Of a DNA stretch of 25,774 nucleotides, positions 7,750 to 20,453 are shown in pieces. Within the stretch, counting starts at the first letter, position 1. Each line of letters begins with the position of its first letter. The translations under genes were made by a program, and so were the position numbers. The stretch is taken from positions 1 to 25,774 of IMG/VR virus record IMGVR_UViG_3300028027_000215; one strand, given 5' to 3'. This DNA comes from a virus. The notes below the pieces were generated by a model. That model was not told the origin of the DNA and ran no database searches. It worked only from the letters and a program-made list of their open reading frames with translations.

Positions 7750-7937
7750 TTCCATTCTCCTTTTTCAATTGCTCTATTACCTTTAGTCCATTGTTCTTCA
7801 AAATCTCTTAACAACTTATACCCAAATCTATTTTTGTATTTGTGCATATATTCTCTAAATTCTCGCAATCCCCAATCCCTTCGCCATTTAATTAGTTGGC
7901 GAACCATGCAACGATGTTTATGTTTTTGTTGATCCAT
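7746..7937 (-). CDS. Small basic unknown protein after the methyltransferase
   Basis: This 63-residue, very basic protein begins HKHRCMVRQLIKWRRDWG and ends FEEQWTKGNRAIEKGEWK. I recall short phage proteins with a similar RHRCEVR start and EQWxxGNRGExGxW end, but know no function for them. Its ATG directly follows the methyltransferase stop (TAG then ATG), so the two are co-translated. Its stop overlaps the next gene's GTG. Confidence 0.72.
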   Translation of the reverse strand: MDQQKHKHRCMVRQLIKWRRDWGLREFREYMHKYKNRFGYKLLRDFEEQWTKGNRAIEKGEWK

Positions 7938-8738
7938 CTAATCGTTCTTTAAGGAGTTCCCATGCAATTCCAGCCACTTGTGGAACTTGTCCGTTTCCAA
8001 TGGCTTTAAGTCTGTCCACCCTAAAGGCCACCCCATCAACCATTCGTAAAGGCTCGGATTGATTGAAGATGGAATGTAAGTCCCATTTTTGACTGCATTT
8101 TTGTGCGCTCCTGATCCGCCTGCGTTCCCCCCCCCCCTGATGGAGTTGTTGGAGTCGGCCATATTGTTTCCCTGCGTTTTTTCAGAGCTTTCCGACTGTT
8201 GCTTCCACCATCCCTCCCTGTTGTTGGGGTATGAAAGAAGTTCTCTCCGTTTGGCAACAATCCAAATTCTTTCTCTGTGATGTTTAGCTCCAATGTCTGA
8301 AGCTCCAATGACTCCCCACGCAGCATCAAACCCAATCTCGGCCAACTGTCCAAGAACTGTTCCGAGTCCTCTATGAACGAGCATTGGCGAGTTTTCCACA
8401 TAGACGAATCTTGGTCGTATCTCGCAAATGATACGAGCCATTTCTTTCCACATTCCTGATCTTTCACCATCAATTCCTGCTCCTTTTCCTGCAGCGCTGA
8501 TGTCTTGGCATGGAAATCCGCCTGATACGACATCAACAATTCCTCTCCAAGGCTTTCCATCAAAGGTTTGAACATCATCCCAAATTGGGAAAGGCGGAAG
8601 AAGTCCATCATTTTGCCTGGCGCACAATACGCTTGCTGGGTATGCTTCCCATTCAACGGCACAGACTGTTCGCCATCCGAGCAAATGTCCCCCAAGTATT
8701 CCTCCACCAGCGCCTGCGAAAAGAGCCAACTCATTCAA
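7938..8738 (-). CDS. DNA (cytosine-5) methyltransferase
   Basis: This 266-residue enzyme should transfer a methyl group from S-adenosylmethionine to C5 of cytosine in a specific site, probably protecting phage DNA from host restriction. The motifs run in order: LALFAGAGGG (I, residues 4-13), AVEWEAYP (II), WDDV (III), VVSGGFPCQDIS (IV, catalytic Cys77), VYVENSP (VI, Glu115), GAKHHRERIWIVA (VIII, about 150-162), a short variable target region, and EWLMGWPLGWTD (IX/X region). It is small for the family, as phage versions are. Upstream in this frame is a stop, so the only start before motif I is TTG at 8738, with GGAGG seven bases upstream. No partner restriction gene is seen. Most of its length is also open in the +1 frame, and an 11-G run lies in the target region. 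Confidence 0.93.
   Translation of the reverse strand: MNELALFAGAGGGILGGHLLGWRTVCAVEWEAYPASVLCARQNDGLLPPFPIWDDVQTFDGKPWRGIVDVVSGGFPCQDISAAGKGAGIDGERSGMWKEMARIICEIRPRFVYVENSPMLVHRGLGTVLGQLAEIGFDAAWGVIGASDIGAKHHRERIWIVAKRRELLSYPNNREGWWKQQSESSEKTQGNNMADSNNSIRGGGNAGGSGAHKNAVKNGTYIPSSINPSLYEWLMGWPLGWTDLKPLETDKFHKWLELHGNSLKND
8036..8734 (-). CDS. Overprinted +1-frame protein inside the methyltransferase gene (WPTP-type)
   Basis: An ATG at 8734 lies four bases inside the methyltransferase and directly after the previous gene's TGA. It opens 232 codons with no stop in the +1 frame. The product contains LSQFGMMFKPL (48-58), EELLMSYQADFHAKTSAL (64-81), SFARYDQDSSMWKT (102-115), SWPRLGLMLRGE (130-141), FGLLPNG (157-163) and IWPTPTTP (191-198). 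I recall exactly this string of motifs (SFARYD..S.WKT, TWPRWGMM.NG, LWPTPT) from phage proteins that occur alone or at the end of cytosine methyltransferases. The match to a protein family suggests a real overlapping gene rather than a chance open frame. Another reading is that database entries of this type are themselves frames of methyltransferase genes. Function is unknown. Confidence 0.6.
   Translation of the reverse strand: MSWLFSQALVEEYLGDICSDGEQSVPLNGKHTQQAYCAPGKMMDFFRLSQFGMMFKPLMESLGEELLMSYQADFHAKTSALQEKEQELMVKDQECGKKWLVSFARYDQDSSMWKTRQCSFIEDSEQFLDSWPRLGLMLRGESLELQTLELNITEKEFGLLPNGENFFHTPTTGRDGGSNSRKALKKRRETIWPTPTTPSGGGGTQADQERTKMQSKMGLTFHLQSIRAFTNG
8127..8137 (-). repeat. Homopolymer of 11 G on the coding strand
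   Basis: Eleven C on the plus strand (11 G in the mRNA) fall in the target-recognition part of the methyltransferase, where they encode Gly residues in both open frames. At 11 G both frames read as described. One extra G would join the +1-frame N-terminal part to the methyltransferase C-terminus (SLYEWLMGWPLGW). One fewer G would give the methyltransferase the +1-frame tail. Poly-G tracts of this length are known slippage switches in bacterial phase-variable genes. Assembly error at the homopolymer is possible. Confidence 0.85.
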
Positions 8739-8752
8739 AACCTAGCCTCCTC
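8732..8752 (-). promoter_or_regulatory. One ribosome binding site serving two staggered starts (TTG and ATG)
   Basis: GAGGAGG (minus strand, about 8746-8752) is followed by TTG at 8738 for the methyltransferase, spaced seven bases, and by ATG at 8734 for the +1-frame protein, spaced eleven bases. The TGA of the 50-aa gene sits at 8737-8735, overlapping the TTG and immediately preceding the ATG. The layout lets terminating ribosomes restart in either frame. Confidence 0.7.
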
Positions 8753-8887
8753 AAAATTAAATATTTGTTTTTTCATTTTCTTAGCCACAACCTTCCAATC
8801 AGGTCTTAAAGAAACAAGGTATTGAGCCTCAGTTTTGCTCTTAACTCTGCGAATTAAGCCGATTTCGTCATAAATGTAATAAATCAT
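8735..8887 (-). CDS. 50-residue unknown protein between the replication protein and methyltransferase
   Basis: This short gene fills the gap between two larger genes. Its ATG overlaps the DUF1376 gene's stop as ATGA, and its TGA abuts the starts of the methyltransferase locus. The product begins MIYYIYDEIGLIRRVKSK, has a predicted strand-helix pattern (KTEAQYLVSLRPDWKVV), and ends IFNFEEARF. It is basic, with no signal peptide. I do not recognise it, but the coupling on both sides argues that it is real. It is in the same frame as the +1-frame protein, with only the TGA between them. Confidence 0.75.
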   Translation of the reverse strand: MIYYIYDEIGLIRRVKSKTEAQYLVSLRPDWKVVAKKMKKQIFNFEEARF

Positions 8888-13830: not shown

Positions 13831-14283
13831 TTAGTTCCCCAATCTGTTAGTTGTTGCTCTTTTTAATGTATTCATCTCTGATCGCAAAGATGATGCCGTA
13901 ACTTCTAACTCTACTTTTTGAGCAGACAATCCAGCTCTAAGTTCCTTTTGGACTGACTCTGAAACAACTTTGGCTTCCCTAGAGTTAATCATGGTTTCAG
14001 CAGTTCTTTCCTGTAGCTTCATAACTGTTTCACGCAATTCTGCGTTTTTTTCTTCTAAAGCCTCTACCTTACGCAAAGCCTTTGAAGCAGTTGATGAAAC
14101 ATCATCATAGCTTTCATACATAGCTTTTACTTCATTGAACCTAGTAATTCCTGTATAGCCAGCACCAAATACAATAGGAATACCAGTTAATGCTATGCCA
14201 GCAATCATGGTGTTTTGTTTAGCCCAAGTTACCCACTTTTCTACAAAACCTTGGACTTTATCTAATTTCTCTAAATCGCTCAT
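13831..14283 (-). CDS. Membrane-anchored coiled-coil protein, possible inner spanin
   Basis: This 150-residue protein has one hydrophobic helix near the N-terminus (MIAGIALTGIPIVFGAGYTG, about 26-45) followed by a long coiled coil (VEALEEKNAELRETVMKLQE and on to the end). The topology resembles an Rz-type inner spanin, and it lies in the lysis cassette beside the holin. I see no matching outer-membrane lipoprotein partner, so the spanin call is tentative. It is coupled to the upstream secreted-protein gene by ATGA. Confidence 0.7.
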   Translation of the reverse strand: MSDLEKLDKVQGFVEKWVTWAKQNTMIAGIALTGIPIVFGAGYTGITRFNEVKAMYESYDDVSSTASKALRKVEALEEKNAELRETVMKLQERTAETMINSREAKVVSESVQKELRAGLSAQKVELEVTASSLRSEMNTLKRATTNRLGN

Positions 14284-15227
14284 TGCTCTATCTCCACACC
14301 ATCTTTAATAATTTGATTAAGTTTGTCTGTTTGATTGTAAAAAGATTGCCCATAGACATCTAGAAACAACTGATTGCTTAACAGTATTTCATTTGGCAAC
14401 CCCTGAATTAACTGAGGCTCAGAAAATACATTAGGCTGATTCATCGTTGGTTTCACAATGGTTTCCAATGACAGCACAAGGCCAACCACCGACTTTGTTT
14501 TGCCCTTTGGACTCTCTTGGGGAGTCACCTTTGCATCCGCTTGGGCAGTCAATGATGGAGCAGAGCTTTCCACTTTCAGGGCAGGTAATCCATCCATTTG
14601 AGTTGTCGGAGCATTGGCAACGCTCACCGCTTGAGTCGTAACCGATGTTGTAGCAGTATTTACAGGGTTCAGGGGAGAAACTGGACTTACTGGACTCATC
14701 ACATTTGTAGGATTTGTTACGCTCTTTACGCAAGTGTTTGTCGTTGTTATCCAATCTCCCATAACGGCTTGTGAGTAAGGAGTTGGACAAATTGATGTCC
14801 GAGTCTGAGTGATGCTTCCTGTATATCCTGTCTGACAGCTTAATGTTTGTTGTTGGCTTGTTGTTTGACATGATGGAGGATTTAATACGCAAGTGTTTGA
14901 GTAAAGCACCCAATCTGTTTGGGTAATTGTTCCATCACTACAAGTTCTAGTTTCTTGCCTGTATCTTTTGAAACCTGAATAGTTTGGCGGACAGCTTTCT
15001 GTCTTTTCAATAAAGGTTGAAGTGCAGATAGGAGCAGCTTGAGGGCATCCTTGGAGATTTGGGTAGATTTGACAAGCAAGAGCTTGGCATTGCGCAAGGC
15101 TTGTTCCGCCATCAACAAAAAGAGAGCCGTAAACTGGCATCCCATTACTCCATGAACCAGCGTAACAATTGGCTTTAGCATTACTTGTTACCAGTAGGAA
15201 TAGCAACGAGGCTAGGAACTTTGCCAT
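14280..15227 (-). CDS. Secreted Cys-rich repeat protein in the lysis cassette
   Basis: From ATG 15227 the 315-residue product begins with a clear signal peptide (MAKFLASLLFLLVTSNAKA, cleavage before NCYAG). A longer frame to 15287 would bury that signal and overlap the upstream gene more. The mature protein has two Cys-rich units of similar pattern: SCPPNYSGFKRYRQETRTC...DWVLYSNTC and SCQTGYTGSITQTRTSIC...DWITTTNTC. A Ser/Thr/Pro-rich linker (SPVSPLNPVNTATTS) and a C-terminal region without Cys follow. Similar repeats occur, as I recall, in surface and pilus-associated bacterial proteins. In a phage it could act in the periplasm or at the cell surface; the function is unknown. Confidence 0.75.
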   Translation of the reverse strand: MAKFLASLLFLLVTSNAKANCYAGSWSNGMPVYGSLFVDGGTSLAQCQALACQIYPNLQGCPQAAPICTSTFIEKTESCPPNYSGFKRYRQETRTCSDGTITQTDWVLYSNTCVLNPPSCQTTSQQQTLSCQTGYTGSITQTRTSICPTPYSQAVMGDWITTTNTCVKSVTNPTNVMSPVSPVSPLNPVNTATTSVTTQAVSVANAPTTQMDGLPALKVESSAPSLTAQADAKVTPQESPKGKTKSVVGLVLSLETIVKPTMNQPNVFSEPQLIQGLPNEILLSNQLFLDVYGQSFYNQTDKLNQIIKDGVEIEQ

Positions 15228-15654
15228 ATAGTTTCTCAAACTTCTTTGGTGCTTGTTTAATCCATTCATTGCGAGCTTCATCACCAATTAAGCCATCAAT
15301 AGGGCATGGAGTTCCTGACATCATCATTGCATCCCAAACTCTATCATCAGCACATAAAGTTGATACGGCAGCCACTTTTAAGCCTAAATCATTAAGTGTT
15401 TTGGCTAATTTGATTCTTTCGCAGTTAGCATCCGTATATACAGAACCGCCTGAAACACCAATAACTGTAGAGCTAATAGCTCCACTTACAGGAATACCGC
15501 AAACATCTTGGCTAAAAGCAGACATTGAAGGAGCAATTGCTGAAGGAACTGGCTGGCCCTGATACTTCATAATCATGGTTGAGTCTTGGGCTATTGCTAC
15601 AGCAATACTTACACCTAAAGCCAAACCAACAACAAACCAAGCTATCTGTTTCAT
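15181..15654 (-). CDS. Exported unknown protein
   Basis: This 157-residue protein has a typical signal peptide (MKQIAWFVVGLALGVSIAVAIA, probable cleavage before QDS). The mature part has four Cys (DVCGIP, DANCERI, STLCADD, GTPCPID), suggesting periplasmic disulfides. A C-terminal charged segment follows (NEWIKQAPKKFEKLYGKVP). No lipobox is seen. It starts by ATGA overlap with the XhlA-like gene. I do not recognise the family. Its position suggests a lysis or periplasmic role. Confidence 0.75.
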   Translation of the reverse strand: MKQIAWFVVGLALGVSIAVAIAQDSTMIMKYQGQPVPSAIAPSMSAFSQDVCGIPVSGAISSTVIGVSGGSVYTDANCERIKLAKTLNDLGLKVAAVSTLCADDRVWDAMMMSGTPCPIDGLIGDEARNEWIKQAPKKFEKLYGKVPSLVAIPTGNK

Positions 15655-16638: not shown

Positions 16639-19158
16639 TTATTCCTTACCTATATCTTTAAGTTTAGTTTTGCCTTTTTCAGCGTTTTTTGTCATTTCTT
16701 TTTGAAGCTCAACTGCTTGTTTTTTCTGCGATTTACCAATAGTAAATTGTGCTGCTTTTTCGCCAATCTTTTCGCCAATAGTTGCGCCAAAAGGAATCCG
16801 AGTAGCAGCTCCAGTTTCTCTGCCAATCATAGGGAATTTTTCAGCAAACTTGTTTACTCTTTGACCTTGTAACGCAGCACCTTCGTAAGCATGAACTCCT
16901 GGCATAATATGTCCTGCATAGTTCAATGTATGGAAAGCCTTTTGTTCTTCAGGACTAAATGCGTGTTCAATCTTTTTAGCTCTAGCGTTAAGAATATTGT
17001 TTACTGAGTTTTGATTCCAAACTCCTGCTTTACCAGCTCCAGCTTGGTAAATTTCTCTAGCCAATGCTCCACGCATCTCAGCTTTTGCAGCTTCAGCATA
17101 TTGCATTAATTCAGGAGTAAGCTCTAAATCAAAGCCAACCCCACGAACTCTGCCTTTTGAGATTTCATCATAGGTATCGTAAATATGCTTCCATTGATCT
17201 GCTGGCATTTGATTGAGTTTCTTAGGGATAGCCTGAAAATCAGTAGCAGTTTGAACTCCATTAGAGTCCACTTCGCCAAATAGCTTATCCATGCCTTTAG
17301 ATTCAAATATTTTTTGCTCTGCTTGATGAACACTTCTAGCTCTTTTATATAAATCTTCACCGCCAGCTTTAGCAATATCTTCATCAATGGCTTTAACAAT
17401 ACGGCCAATTTCACGCTTGTTTTGTGGAGTCCATTGAGCATTTACAGATTTACGCAATTCTTCTAGCCCTGCAATACTGCCAGGCTTAGTTCCTTCAAAT
17501 CCTTGAGTTTTATGCAACTCTAATAATTCACCAAGACCTTCTGTAAAGTCTTTAATTCCTTTGAGTTTTAGCTCAGATTTAAACTTTGTTGAATTTAATA
17601 GGTTTTCTAAAGTAGTTGATGGAACTGGATTATCTCCAACCTTAACTCTAGCATCTTGATAAAGTTTATCTTTTGCATTTTTGAAGAATCCTGTTAATCC
17701 TTCAGAGCTTGCAATAGCATCATTCATAAGCTGACCACGCTCATAATCTGATGGCAAATTCCTACTTGCACCAGTATTTTCAATTCTTTGTTCAGCGTAT
17801 TTTGTCAAAGCATTTTGCTCATCAGCAATTTGCTTCTTCAACAACTCGCTCTTAGGAGTTGGATTAGCTGATCTAGCCTCTGTGTATTCTTGGCGCAAGA
17901 TGTTTTCGTTGCCAGTAATAACACCGCTTCGGACTTGACCAGTATTGCCAAGAACTTCGTTAGCAATATCAGCTCTCATTGCTTGCTCAGTTGGAGCAAC
18001 ATCTTCTTTAATCTTGCTTAGTTTGACAGTTGGATATTGACCCCTAGCAGTTTCTTCGCCAGTAATCTTTCCAGCAAAAGGATTAATCTCAACTTTAGCT
18101 GCTCCTACTCCAGTTAATGTTGATTGTGCGCCAGCAGTAGGAGCAACTGGAGCTTCTTCAAACTTAGGAAAGCTCTTTTCAAACTGTGCTTTTAATTTAG
18201 GCAATCTTTCAGCAACTTTAGGAACTTTAGCTCCAACAGCAGTTGAAAGAGTGCCAATCATGTTTTCCACATCTTCTTTAGGGATACCAGTTTTCTTGGA
18301 AATAGATTCAGCGCTTTCGCCAATATATTGTCCAATTGCATCCATTGCTCTGCGACTAGCTTCAGTTTTATAAGCAGTTGATTCTGTTATGCCAAATGCT
18401 TTACCAAATGGCTGTGATATAGGCTCAGATAGATTTTTTGCAATCTCAGTAGCTTTTTCAGGAGATTGACCAAATGCTCTAGCAACAGGATAAGCAACAG
18501 AGCTAACAACACCTGGCACAACTCCAACAACTGTGTCCGCCAAAGATGCAAAAGGAGCTACAGCTTCTTTAGCTGTGTCTTTATCCTTCTTGCTAAACAT
18601 TTCATGAAACTTTTGATTTTTGTCTAACTTTGGAATTGTATTTTTCTTTACTTCTGTTGGCTTACCGCCTTCTGTAGTTGTTTCTTGAGCTTGACCGCCC
18701 ATCAAAAAACTACCAAATGGGTCAGAAGATTCTTGGGTTGTTGCAGTTTGTTTAACACCACCAACCACTTTGTTTATATATGCAGTAGGATTTTTTGTAA
18801 TGTGACCGCCATAAGCAGCCAATGCCTTGTCCAAACTACCTGTTTTTTCAACTAAAGTAGTCAAATAATGGCGAGCTGCATCCCTAGCTTGCGTTGGATT
18901 AAATGGGTTAAATTCATATCCTTGTTCATGCAACATTTTTACTGTTGAAGGAATAAATTGATAATCGCCCATCGCCCCTGATTCTTTGTTCAGAGCAAAC
19001 TTTTGTTTACCGCTTTCCGTTCTTTTTAAGCTATCCAATAGCTCATCAGTAATGAGCGCAGAACCTTTTGAAGTTGAAGGCTTTGCTAAAGGATTTGCTT
19101 GAGGAGGAGGAGCAGATTTTGTCTGTCCACCCATTAAGAATTGGCTAAAGTCATCCAT
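16639..19158 (-). CDS. Large ejection protein with N-terminal lytic transglycosylase domain
   Basis: This 839-residue protein sits in the P22 gp16 position. Near its start is a lysozyme-like domain: RTESG (catalytic Glu about 48), GAMGDYQFIPST (63-72 region, the GLMQ-type motif), ARHYLTTLV and ALAAYGGH. It should locally open peptidoglycan as the protein is ejected into the host. The rest is long, hydrophilic and helical, with a Gly/Ala/Val-rich, possibly membrane-active stretch (SLADTVVGVVPGVVSSVAYP, about 202-221). The motif FLMGGQ appears twice, on either side of the enzyme domain. TAATG coupling links it to the upstream gene. Confidence 0.85.
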   Translation of the reverse strand: MDDFSQFLMGGQTKSAPPPQANPLAKPSTSKGSALITDELLDSLKRTESGKQKFALNKESGAMGDYQFIPSTVKMLHEQGYEFNPFNPTQARDAARHYLTTLVEKTGSLDKALAAYGGHITKNPTAYINKVVGGVKQTATTQESSDPFGSFLMGGQAQETTTEGGKPTEVKKNTIPKLDKNQKFHEMFSKKDKDTAKEAVAPFASLADTVVGVVPGVVSSVAYPVARAFGQSPEKATEIAKNLSEPISQPFGKAFGITESTAYKTEASRRAMDAIGQYIGESAESISKKTGIPKEDVENMIGTLSTAVGAKVPKVAERLPKLKAQFEKSFPKFEEAPVAPTAGAQSTLTGVGAAKVEINPFAGKITGEETARGQYPTVKLSKIKEDVAPTEQAMRADIANEVLGNTGQVRSGVITGNENILRQEYTEARSANPTPKSELLKKQIADEQNALTKYAEQRIENTGASRNLPSDYERGQLMNDAIASSEGLTGFFKNAKDKLYQDARVKVGDNPVPSTTLENLLNSTKFKSELKLKGIKDFTEGLGELLELHKTQGFEGTKPGSIAGLEELRKSVNAQWTPQNKREIGRIVKAIDEDIAKAGGEDLYKRARSVHQAEQKIFESKGMDKLFGEVDSNGVQTATDFQAIPKKLNQMPADQWKHIYDTYDEISKGRVRGVGFDLELTPELMQYAEAAKAEMRGALAREIYQAGAGKAGVWNQNSVNNILNARAKKIEHAFSPEEQKAFHTLNYAGHIMPGVHAYEGAALQGQRVNKFAEKFPMIGRETGAATRIPFGATIGEKIGEKAAQFTIGKSQKKQAVELQKEMTKNAEKGKTKLKDIGKE

Positions 19159-20453
19159 TATAAAGACCCTGTTTGCTCTAATTTCTTAATGTTATTGTAT
19201 TTCTCATTAAAAATCTGTATTTGTTTCTTATCTGTTCCAATTAATTTATCTCTAGCTTTAGCTTTTTCTTCAGCAGACATATTTGGATCTTCAAAAATGT
19301 TTTTAAGTTGGAAAATCTTAGGATCAGCATTGGCAGACCACATCTGATTAAATGCGCTTATATTTTGATCGCCAAACTTATCAGCAAACTTTTTAATAGA
19401 AGTTGCTTTTGAATCAAGAGCAAGCATATCAGCTTGAGTTCTGCGAGCAATTTCAATCAATACTTGAGGAGGATATGTTTCATCTCCGTTAGCCATTCTT
19501 ACTAACTGTTTTCCAGCATCAGTAGCCAATGAGCCACCTGAAGCTGTAATGTTAGCAATTTGAGCATTTGCCAAGTCTTTAGACAACTCTTTGTAACGAA
19601 TACCTTGCTCAGTTCCAAGAAATGTTGAAACTCCTCTTTCCATAACACCTAAAGCGCCTGAAGTTGGCAAAATAGCTTCTTTTTCAAGTTCAGCAGCTTT
19701 TTTAATAACTTCATCAATACTTCTTCTAGATTGAGGAATGTCCGCTTGTCTAGCAATAAGTGCTGACTTAGTTTGAGTTCCAATCTTACGCTCATCTTCC
19801 TCTTGTGGAAGGGCTGTATAGGCTTGACCAGCTTGCCTTACAGGATAAGATAAATTAACAGGCTTGCTAAAATCAGATTTAACTGGTTGATTCATTTGAT
19901 TAGCAGTTACACCTTTTGGAGTTTCACCCTCGGCAGCTCCTGAAGAAGTCTGATAACCGCCAGCAGGCAACTGAGAAGGCAATACACCGCCTGGATACAT
20001 TTTTTCAAGTTGAGATTGAGCAGTTAAAGTTTTAGCTAAATTCATTGCTAAATAAGATCTTAATTCGGATGGAGATCCATTAACAGGTATTCCTGCCAAT
20101 GCTTGCTCTACAGCTTCTTTAGGTGCGCCAAATCTATTAGCTTGATCCCTAGCTGATTTAATAATGTCATCAGCAGTTAAATCAGGCTTTGTAAGCAAAG
20201 TTTGTTGTTGCTGAACAATAGAAGCAATATGTTTGTAATTATTCTCTAGTTTTGCAGTATCAGCTTGCAATACAGATGTTCTAGCTTGCGCTTGACCTTG
20301 CTCTATTTGAGATGGCAATAAAGCCTTTTCTCTTTGCAAAGCAGTAGATGTTCTTCCAAGATCAGTTAGCTCTTGTAAAGACATACCCTTTGGAGCTGTT
20401 GTTTGAGTTTGGTAGATGCTTGGATCTGCTAATTGACTGATGGATGCTGGCAT
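19158..20453 (-). CDS. Probable ejection/internal virion protein
   Basis: This 431-residue protein is helical and Gln/Ala-rich, without signal or enzymatic motifs. It has long charged helices (EKALLPSQIEQGQAQARTSV, AKLENNYKHIASIVQQQQ) and a Gly/Pro-rich centre. By position between the gp7-like and gp16-like genes it corresponds to P22 gp20, a protein injected with the DNA. I infer the role from order and composition only; sequence similarity to gp20 is not evident to me. Confidence 0.72.
   Translation of the reverse strand: MPASISQLADPSIYQTQTTAPKGMSLQELTDLGRTSTALQREKALLPSQIEQGQAQARTSVLQADTAKLENNYKHIASIVQQQQTLLTKPDLTADDIIKSARDQANRFGAPKEAVEQALAGIPVNGSPSELRSYLAMNLAKTLTAQSQLEKMYPGGVLPSQLPAGGYQTSSGAAEGETPKGVTANQMNQPVKSDFSKPVNLSYPVRQAGQAYTALPQEEDERKIGTQTKSALIARQADIPQSRRSIDEVIKKAAELEKEAILPTSGALGVMERGVSTFLGTEQGIRYKELSKDLANAQIANITASGGSLATDAGKQLVRMANGDETYPPQVLIEIARRTQADMLALDSKATSIKKFADKFGDQNISAFNQMWSANADPKIFQLKNIFEDPNMSAEEKAKARDKLIGTDKKQIQIFNEKYNNIKKLEQTGSL

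Follow-up and report, generated by a model that had tools for sequence, protein, structure and literature searches.

Two overlapping reading frames in a phage C5 cytosine methyltransferase gene: a probable two-subunit enzyme with variable runs of G

Organization of the locus

The DNA studied here, referred to as the window, is the whole 25,774-nucleotide stretch of a 25.8-kb IMG/VR virus record (IMGVR_UViG_3300028027_000215) that possesses portal, terminase and DNA-ejection genes. Two other ORFs of this record, one of 335 aa (14280-15287, minus strand) and one of 431 aa (19158-20453, minus strand), had no PHROG match at an E-value of 0.001. The gene of interest can be read in two frames (Table 1). 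The ORF of the first reading, which we call alpha, matches PF00145 through residues 4-192 (Pfam, E = 1.4e-32) and holds motifs I-VIII within residues 1-165. With PCQ, ENx and RxR set in a SAM-binding fold, alpha is assigned to the C5 methyltransferases by the PF00145 match and by comparison with M.HhaI. In an AF2 model of the window ORF, residues 1-168 mostly have pLDDT values above 90, and this part of the model aligns with M.HhaI over 173 residues (Z 19.8, rmsd 2.3). Residues encoded 3' of an 11-G run in this ORF correspond to the C-terminal tail of the second reading and not to the usual alpha tail; the position of this fused tail in the AF2 model is unreliable.

Table 1. Coordinates of the features found at the methyltransferase locus of the window.
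Feature	Position	Strand	Basis
Alpha reading, C5 cytosine methyltransferase ORF, 266 codons, TTG start at 8738	7938..8738	-	Translation, PF00145
Beta reading, 232-codon ORF in the +1 frame of alpha, beginning with ATG at 8734, offset from the alpha start by 4 nt	8036..8734	-	Translation
Alpha motif IV PCQ with catalytic Cys77	8505..8513	-	Translation; C77 invariant in alignment A2
Alpha motif VI ENS	8388..8396	-	Translation; E115, N116 and S117 invariant in A2
Beta SFARYDQDSSMWKT, overlapping alpha motif VI	8390..8431	-	Translation; W113 and T115 nearly invariant in A1/A3
Beta SWPRLGLM	8324..8347	-	Translation; P132 and G135 conserved in A1/A3
11-G run (C on the plus strand), change of alpha/beta register relative to L010	8127..8137	-	
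Motif-IX-like tail at the C-terminus of beta, INPSLYEWLMGWPLGWTDLKPLETDKFHKW..., in the window continuous with the alpha frame	7941..8063	-	Match to beta profile positions 213-286
Alpha C-terminus with motif X (RMVDGVAFRVDRLKAIGNGQVPQVAGIAWELL), displaced into the third frame	7918..8046	-	Frame 2 translation
GAGGAGG resembling a Shine-Dalgarno site, 7 nt upstream of the alpha TTG, 11 nt upstream of the beta ATG	8746..8752	-	
Upstream ORF of 50 aa, with a TGA stop directly next to the beta ATG and sharing bases with the alpha start (TTGA)	8735..8887	-	ORF list

The initial annotation had proposed that the +1 frame of the methyltransferase codes for a second protein, here called beta. The 232-codon stop-free frame on which that proposal was built is indeed present, and translation places SFARYDQDSSMWKT, SWPRLGLM and WPTPTT in it as described, with the MWKT of beta being read from the same DNA as the VYVENSP of alpha. 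The expectation that these motifs belong to a recognizable phage protein family was borne out as well: beta of the window matches PHROG_1008 (E = 4.5e-14, positions 34-183 of the 329 in the profile), and so do the beta frames of three relatives (L001, at profile positions 35-281, L007 and L010).

A single ribosome landing site upstream of the two start codons would serve both of them. An ORF of at least 40 codons that ends at the same place as the upstream ORF of the window is found in 40 of 91 relatives, and from this arrangement it is possible that its translation is coupled to initiation at both starts.

Both frames are constrained as coding sequence

The open +1 frame had been given a chance probability of 1 in 70,000. 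This figure was derived from the wrong null, since it ignores the constraint imposed by the methyltransferase protein. The null model used here shuffles synonymous codons within each gene and holds the alpha protein fixed. We applied it to 58 deduplicated genes, nearly all of which were retrieved by means of the alpha sequence alone, with a few named phages found by beta; the viral sample consists mostly of environmental contigs. About 305 stops were expected in the +1 frames of these genes, and six were observed. Zero stops were found in 57 of the 58 genes, across 207-339 codons, and all six observed stops fall into one mycobacteriophage gene (L004); the frequent stops among relatives that would have spoken against a second gene are thus not found. 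The +2 frame of the same genes is not depleted of stops (1028 observed versus 896 expected).

In the light of these data, it is hardly conceivable that conserved methyltransferase codons generate the +1 reading as an idle side effect, a concern raised at the outset. Conservation of alpha on its own does produce some similarity between +1 translations; with alpha fixed, however, shuffling predicts about five stops per gene where none is seen, and an open +1 frame is improbable in nearly every single relative. Both control sets behave as predicted by shuffling: 105 neighboring ORFs have 1384 stops in the +1 frame versus 1388 expected, with an open +1 frame in none of the 105, and C5 methyltransferases of a Pfam-based survey that have no detectable beta have 122 versus 121. 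The loci retrieved from a genome collection have zero +1 stops versus 273 expected, a set that was selected by beta and is hence biased.

Substitution patterns bear on the same question. Position 3 of an alpha codon is position 2 of a beta codon, so that changes at position 3 that are silent in alpha alter beta. Among Arg codon differences in alpha, 43% affect position 1 only and are thereby silent in both frames, compared to 11% in neighboring genes; the same comparison of alpha Leu codons did not reveal such a doubly silent bias. Four-fold degenerate sites diverge less in alpha than in the remaining ORFs at these loci when protein identity is equal, e.g., 0.317 against 0.470 at 80-90% identity, some of the control ORFs being unverified. 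Of these codon-position comparisons, Arg codons and four-fold sites speak for dual coding, and Leu codons do not. A further signature lies at the start of beta. Among genes with the NEL start, all 65 viral ones and 48 of the 49 genomic ones use AAT for Asn2 of alpha (background frequencies 0.52 and 0.43), which preserves the beta ATG, and the codon that follows is GAG in 60 of the 65 viral and 48 of the 49 genomic genes (background 0.37 and 0.48). The beta ATG is constant among relatives; the start of alpha, by contrast, uses different codons or is placed further upstream.

Judged by these sequence signatures, the +1 ORF is genuine rather than a product of chance, and both frames are protein-coding across the family. 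Gene overlaps as long as this one have rarely been so strongly supported in cellular or phage genomes. Both products of the overlapping gene can be named here, and the set of genes can be used to study how one DNA evolves under two protein constraints.

Distribution and annotation of the nested pairs

A search of a genome collection with the beta profile returned 100 loci, of which the best 80 were examined. Going by record titles, they are distributed over Proteobacteria, Verrucomicrobia, Spirochaetes, Planctomycetes, Nitrospirae and Patescibacteria, and all 80 have alpha in the frame that makes beta the +1 reading. Beta likewise lies within the +1 frame of a methyltransferase reading at 18 named phage and plasmid loci and in a P. 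aeruginosa plasmid, and it is nested in a methyltransferase in all five matches from 185 genomes of one class. A survey that started from methyltransferases yielded two loci with beta, both nested in alpha. We found no free-standing beta among the matches listed (genome collection, best 80 of 100; phage records, 60 of 110; plasmids; two genome surveys); rare free-standing beta genes may exist. Hence, the view that this family occurs on its own is not supported, every beta examined lying in the +1 frame of a methyltransferase, and the proposed search for +1 homologs outside methyltransferase loci returned none among these matches. Nor is the locus of the window special in keeping both readings: nested pairs are present at all loci examined.

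The nearest approach to a beta without alpha is offered by four relatives (L167, L170, L173 and L194) in which beta is open and an in-frame stop interrupts alpha. The initial annotation had suggested looking for genomes with a broken methyltransferase frame, and these four are of that kind; alpha homology, however, resumes past the stop in all four. In L167 and L173, the stop is located right after motif VIII, and homology to motif X is found further on in the same frame.

The solitary look of the family stems from annotation, in which one of the two frames is usually dropped. Pseudomonas phage phPA-G (L002) and the P. aeruginosa plasmid (L237) have only beta annotated, and Acinetobacter phage ABMM1 (L001) only alpha. 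PHROG_1008 is named 'DNA methyltransferase', whereas its members at these loci are the second frame of such a gene and lack motifs I-VIII. Members of PHROG_1008 that look like orphan 'DNA methyltransferases' are thereby explained. If the two products are subunits of one enzyme, as argued below, annotation loses one subunit at many loci, and cloning of the annotated ORF alone may yield an inactive enzyme. Both overlapping coding sequences have been annotated in the Paenibacillus larvae phages Shelly (gp55/gp56) and Bloom (gp56/gp57), where they match the alpha and beta profiles; the inner one carries the note 'g55 internal gene'. This inner gene starts well inside alpha, in contrast to beta of the window with its start only 4 nt behind that of alpha. 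Among open papers, we found no published account of the nested family in phages.

In Rhodococcus phage ReT1v-2 (L007:1558-2232, 2310-2462), beta possesses a SFARYD-like motif and LPTP repeats but no motif IX, and motifs IX and X are both in alpha; the record annotates beta and a fragment of alpha only. Two families of small proteins, PHROG_26627 and PHROG_35493 (about 70 aa), match only the C-terminal 36-38 residues of beta, and small proteins consisting of the IX-like tail alone may exist.

Division of the methyltransferase motifs between alpha and beta

In most relatives, alpha comprises motifs I-VIII plus motif X (RVDRLKAIGNGQVP), and the +1 ORF extends to EWLMGWPxGWTDLKPLExDKFxxW, giving beta proteins of 228-357 aa. 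Beta there ends in LNPxWVEWLMGWPxGWTDLKPL, which resembles motif IX of ordinary enzymes (RRLTPRECARLMGFP) in pattern and in place. The motif IX assignment rests on this pattern and position; a profile of the beta tail compared with ordinary C5 enzymes had its best two real matches on the LMGFP motif, at noise level. The possibility that the tail is alpha's own motif IX was dropped, as most relatives encode this tail in the +1 frame. By pattern, IX lies in beta and X in alpha at 167 loci, and 17 loci have no IX recognizable with the pattern used. The division is not fixed. Beta of L208 and L211 holds both IX and X, and alpha of these loci ends soon after motif VIII; in the mycobacteriophage gene L004, IX and X are both in alpha.

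This trading of motifs between the frames is the best evidence that both products form one joint enzyme. We therefore favor, with a probability of about three in four, the view that the locus is a nested two-subunit alpha/beta C5 cytosine methyltransferase gene resembling that of M.EcoHK31I. Frame 0 would encode alpha as the large catalytic domain, which has motifs I-VIII, in most cases X, the SAM site and the PCQ nucleophile. Beta, encoded in the +1 frame from 4 nt further on, would provide the side of the enzyme that presumably recognizes the DNA target, together with the motif-IX-like segment. The two chains would bind each other and assemble into one active enzyme, and both would be needed for methylation.

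In M.EcoHK31I, the coding region of the beta subunit, a protein of 176 aa, overlaps that of alpha in another frame, and M.EaeI is organized alike. The large subunit of M.EcoHK31I, a two-polypeptide enzyme that recognizes YGGCCR, has motifs I-VIII and X, and the small polypeptide has IX only (PMC3404938). It is in this motif division, judged by pattern, that the present family appears to resemble M.EcoHK31I in its organization; the two polypeptides from one locus that typify M.EcoHK31I are seen here by the coding signature only. The nested genes differ from M.EcoHK31I in the reach of beta, which starts 4 nt behind alpha and covers almost the entire gene, and in the G runs that many copies contain. 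In the split C5 methyltransferase M.AquI (CYCGRG), the small polypeptide combines motifs IX and X with a portion of the variable region (PMC3404938). Beta of L208 and L211 resembles this second chain in having IX and X, but it overlaps the first chain throughout, whereas the second chain of M.AquI follows the first. The out-of-frame HNH element of ShiLan is an insertion in mycobacteriophage methylases (PMC11855218) and distinct from the overlap described here.

Beta might also be a genuine protein with an unrelated phage function, e.g., a regulator or a counter-defence protein, that has been overprinted on the methyltransferase gene. It matched no Pfam or NCBIfam family, and its AF2 model (beta alone; pLDDT 57, pTM 0.22) had no structural match in the PDB. 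Comparison of the beta profile with PDB sequences returned chance-level matches only, and no counterpart of its N-terminal half could be demonstrated in classical C5 enzymes. The poor model might reflect folding of the chain on its partner, or a poor alignment. An unrelated protein, however, need not accompany alpha in every locus. It would also leave unexplained that beta has motif X exactly where alpha lacks it (L208, L211), and that the beta tail is lost where alpha carries IX and X (L004, L007). We consequently regard an unrelated function as unlikely.

The idea that the family arose by overprinting of a methyltransferase fares differently for the two halves of beta. Since alpha belongs to an old family, the N-terminal half of beta was probably overprinted on it. 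The C-terminal half, by contrast, resembles the TRD/motif-IX region of ordinary C5 enzymes; it need not be new sequence and may instead stem from the old TRD/IX region, shifted into a different frame.

Runs of G and changes of register

Relative to the reference locus L010, which has 10 G preceded by a slightly different sequence, the two readings of the window change register at the 11-G run. The alpha frame passes there into the tail of beta, beta ends early, and motif X comes to lie in the third frame. As a result, motif X is absent from the alpha ORF of the window, whereas most relatives have it in frame; L010, L067 and most other relatives encode the displaced peptide of the window in frame 0. 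Acinetobacter phage ABMM1 and Salmonella phage S9-5 are examples of phages whose copies are intact in register. A G run joins alpha motifs I-VIII in frame to the beta tail in the window, in L012, L014 and L015, and in a group around L068.

Sense-strand runs of at least eight G are concentrated in these genes, with 40 in 97 kb compared to three in 465 kb of flanking DNA (about 65-fold). They range in length from 8 to 15 and occur at several sites, at about 250, 500 and 600 nt; most relatives have no run of this length. At position 253, loci with identical flanks differ in register: those with G10 (L024, L025, L026 and L042) are in register and those with G9 (L062 and L063) are out of register. 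A long homopolymer whose length varies between close relatives and thereby changes the frame is the mark of a phase-variable (contingency) locus, and it is present here. Phase variation is a likely meaning of the G runs, which point to switchable DNA modification in phages.

G runs would also allow beta to be made as part of a single chain, by ribosomal frameshifting or transcriptional slippage and not from its own start. Their recurrence at several places, with 8-15 G, and the in-frame joining of alpha to the beta tail in the window and the loci named above are in keeping with such a mechanism. We nevertheless consider it very unlikely: in most relatives, which have no run of at least eight G, the whole beta frame is open from an ATG beside the alpha start; the codons around this ATG are constrained; and slippage after the start cannot account for the selection that acts on beta codons 1-150.

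The 11-G run of the window thus joins the N-terminal part of alpha to the tail of beta and puts motif X out of frame. The window copy probably shows a switchable G run in one of its states, and the usual enzyme would not be made in that state. If anything, it is a copy whose two readings have slipped out of register rather than one that has specially retained both. For this copy, it is quite possible, even if not our favored reading, that an assembly error or a dead gene accounts for the out-of-register state. Homopolymers are error-prone, one contig provides one length, any single contig may contain such an error, and the occurrence of several related copies in the same state is compatible with an inherited loss; the different register of G9 and G10 copies with identical flanks and the scarcity of long G runs in the flanking DNA argue against it.

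In its widest form, the interpretation would be that of a large, phylum-spanning class of phage and bacterial C5 methyltransferases encoded in two frames over their full length, with obligate partner products, whose catalytic motifs move between frames and whose G runs, in many phages, switch between chimeric enzymes and possibly alter activity or target. We put this forward as a speculative extension that we consider doubtful in its entirety.

Two groups of loci deserve separate mention. In L068, L069, L073, L081, L083, L084 and L107, a tract of 12-15 G lies directly after motif VIII (alpha nt ~498), and alpha is joined to the beta tail; motif X is in another frame in this group, and the frames agree despite the differing tract lengths. 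In L059, L060, L062 and L063, G9 at alpha nt ~253 shifts the alpha frame midway through the catalytic domain, and in L059 the start of beta is joined to the C-terminal part of alpha.
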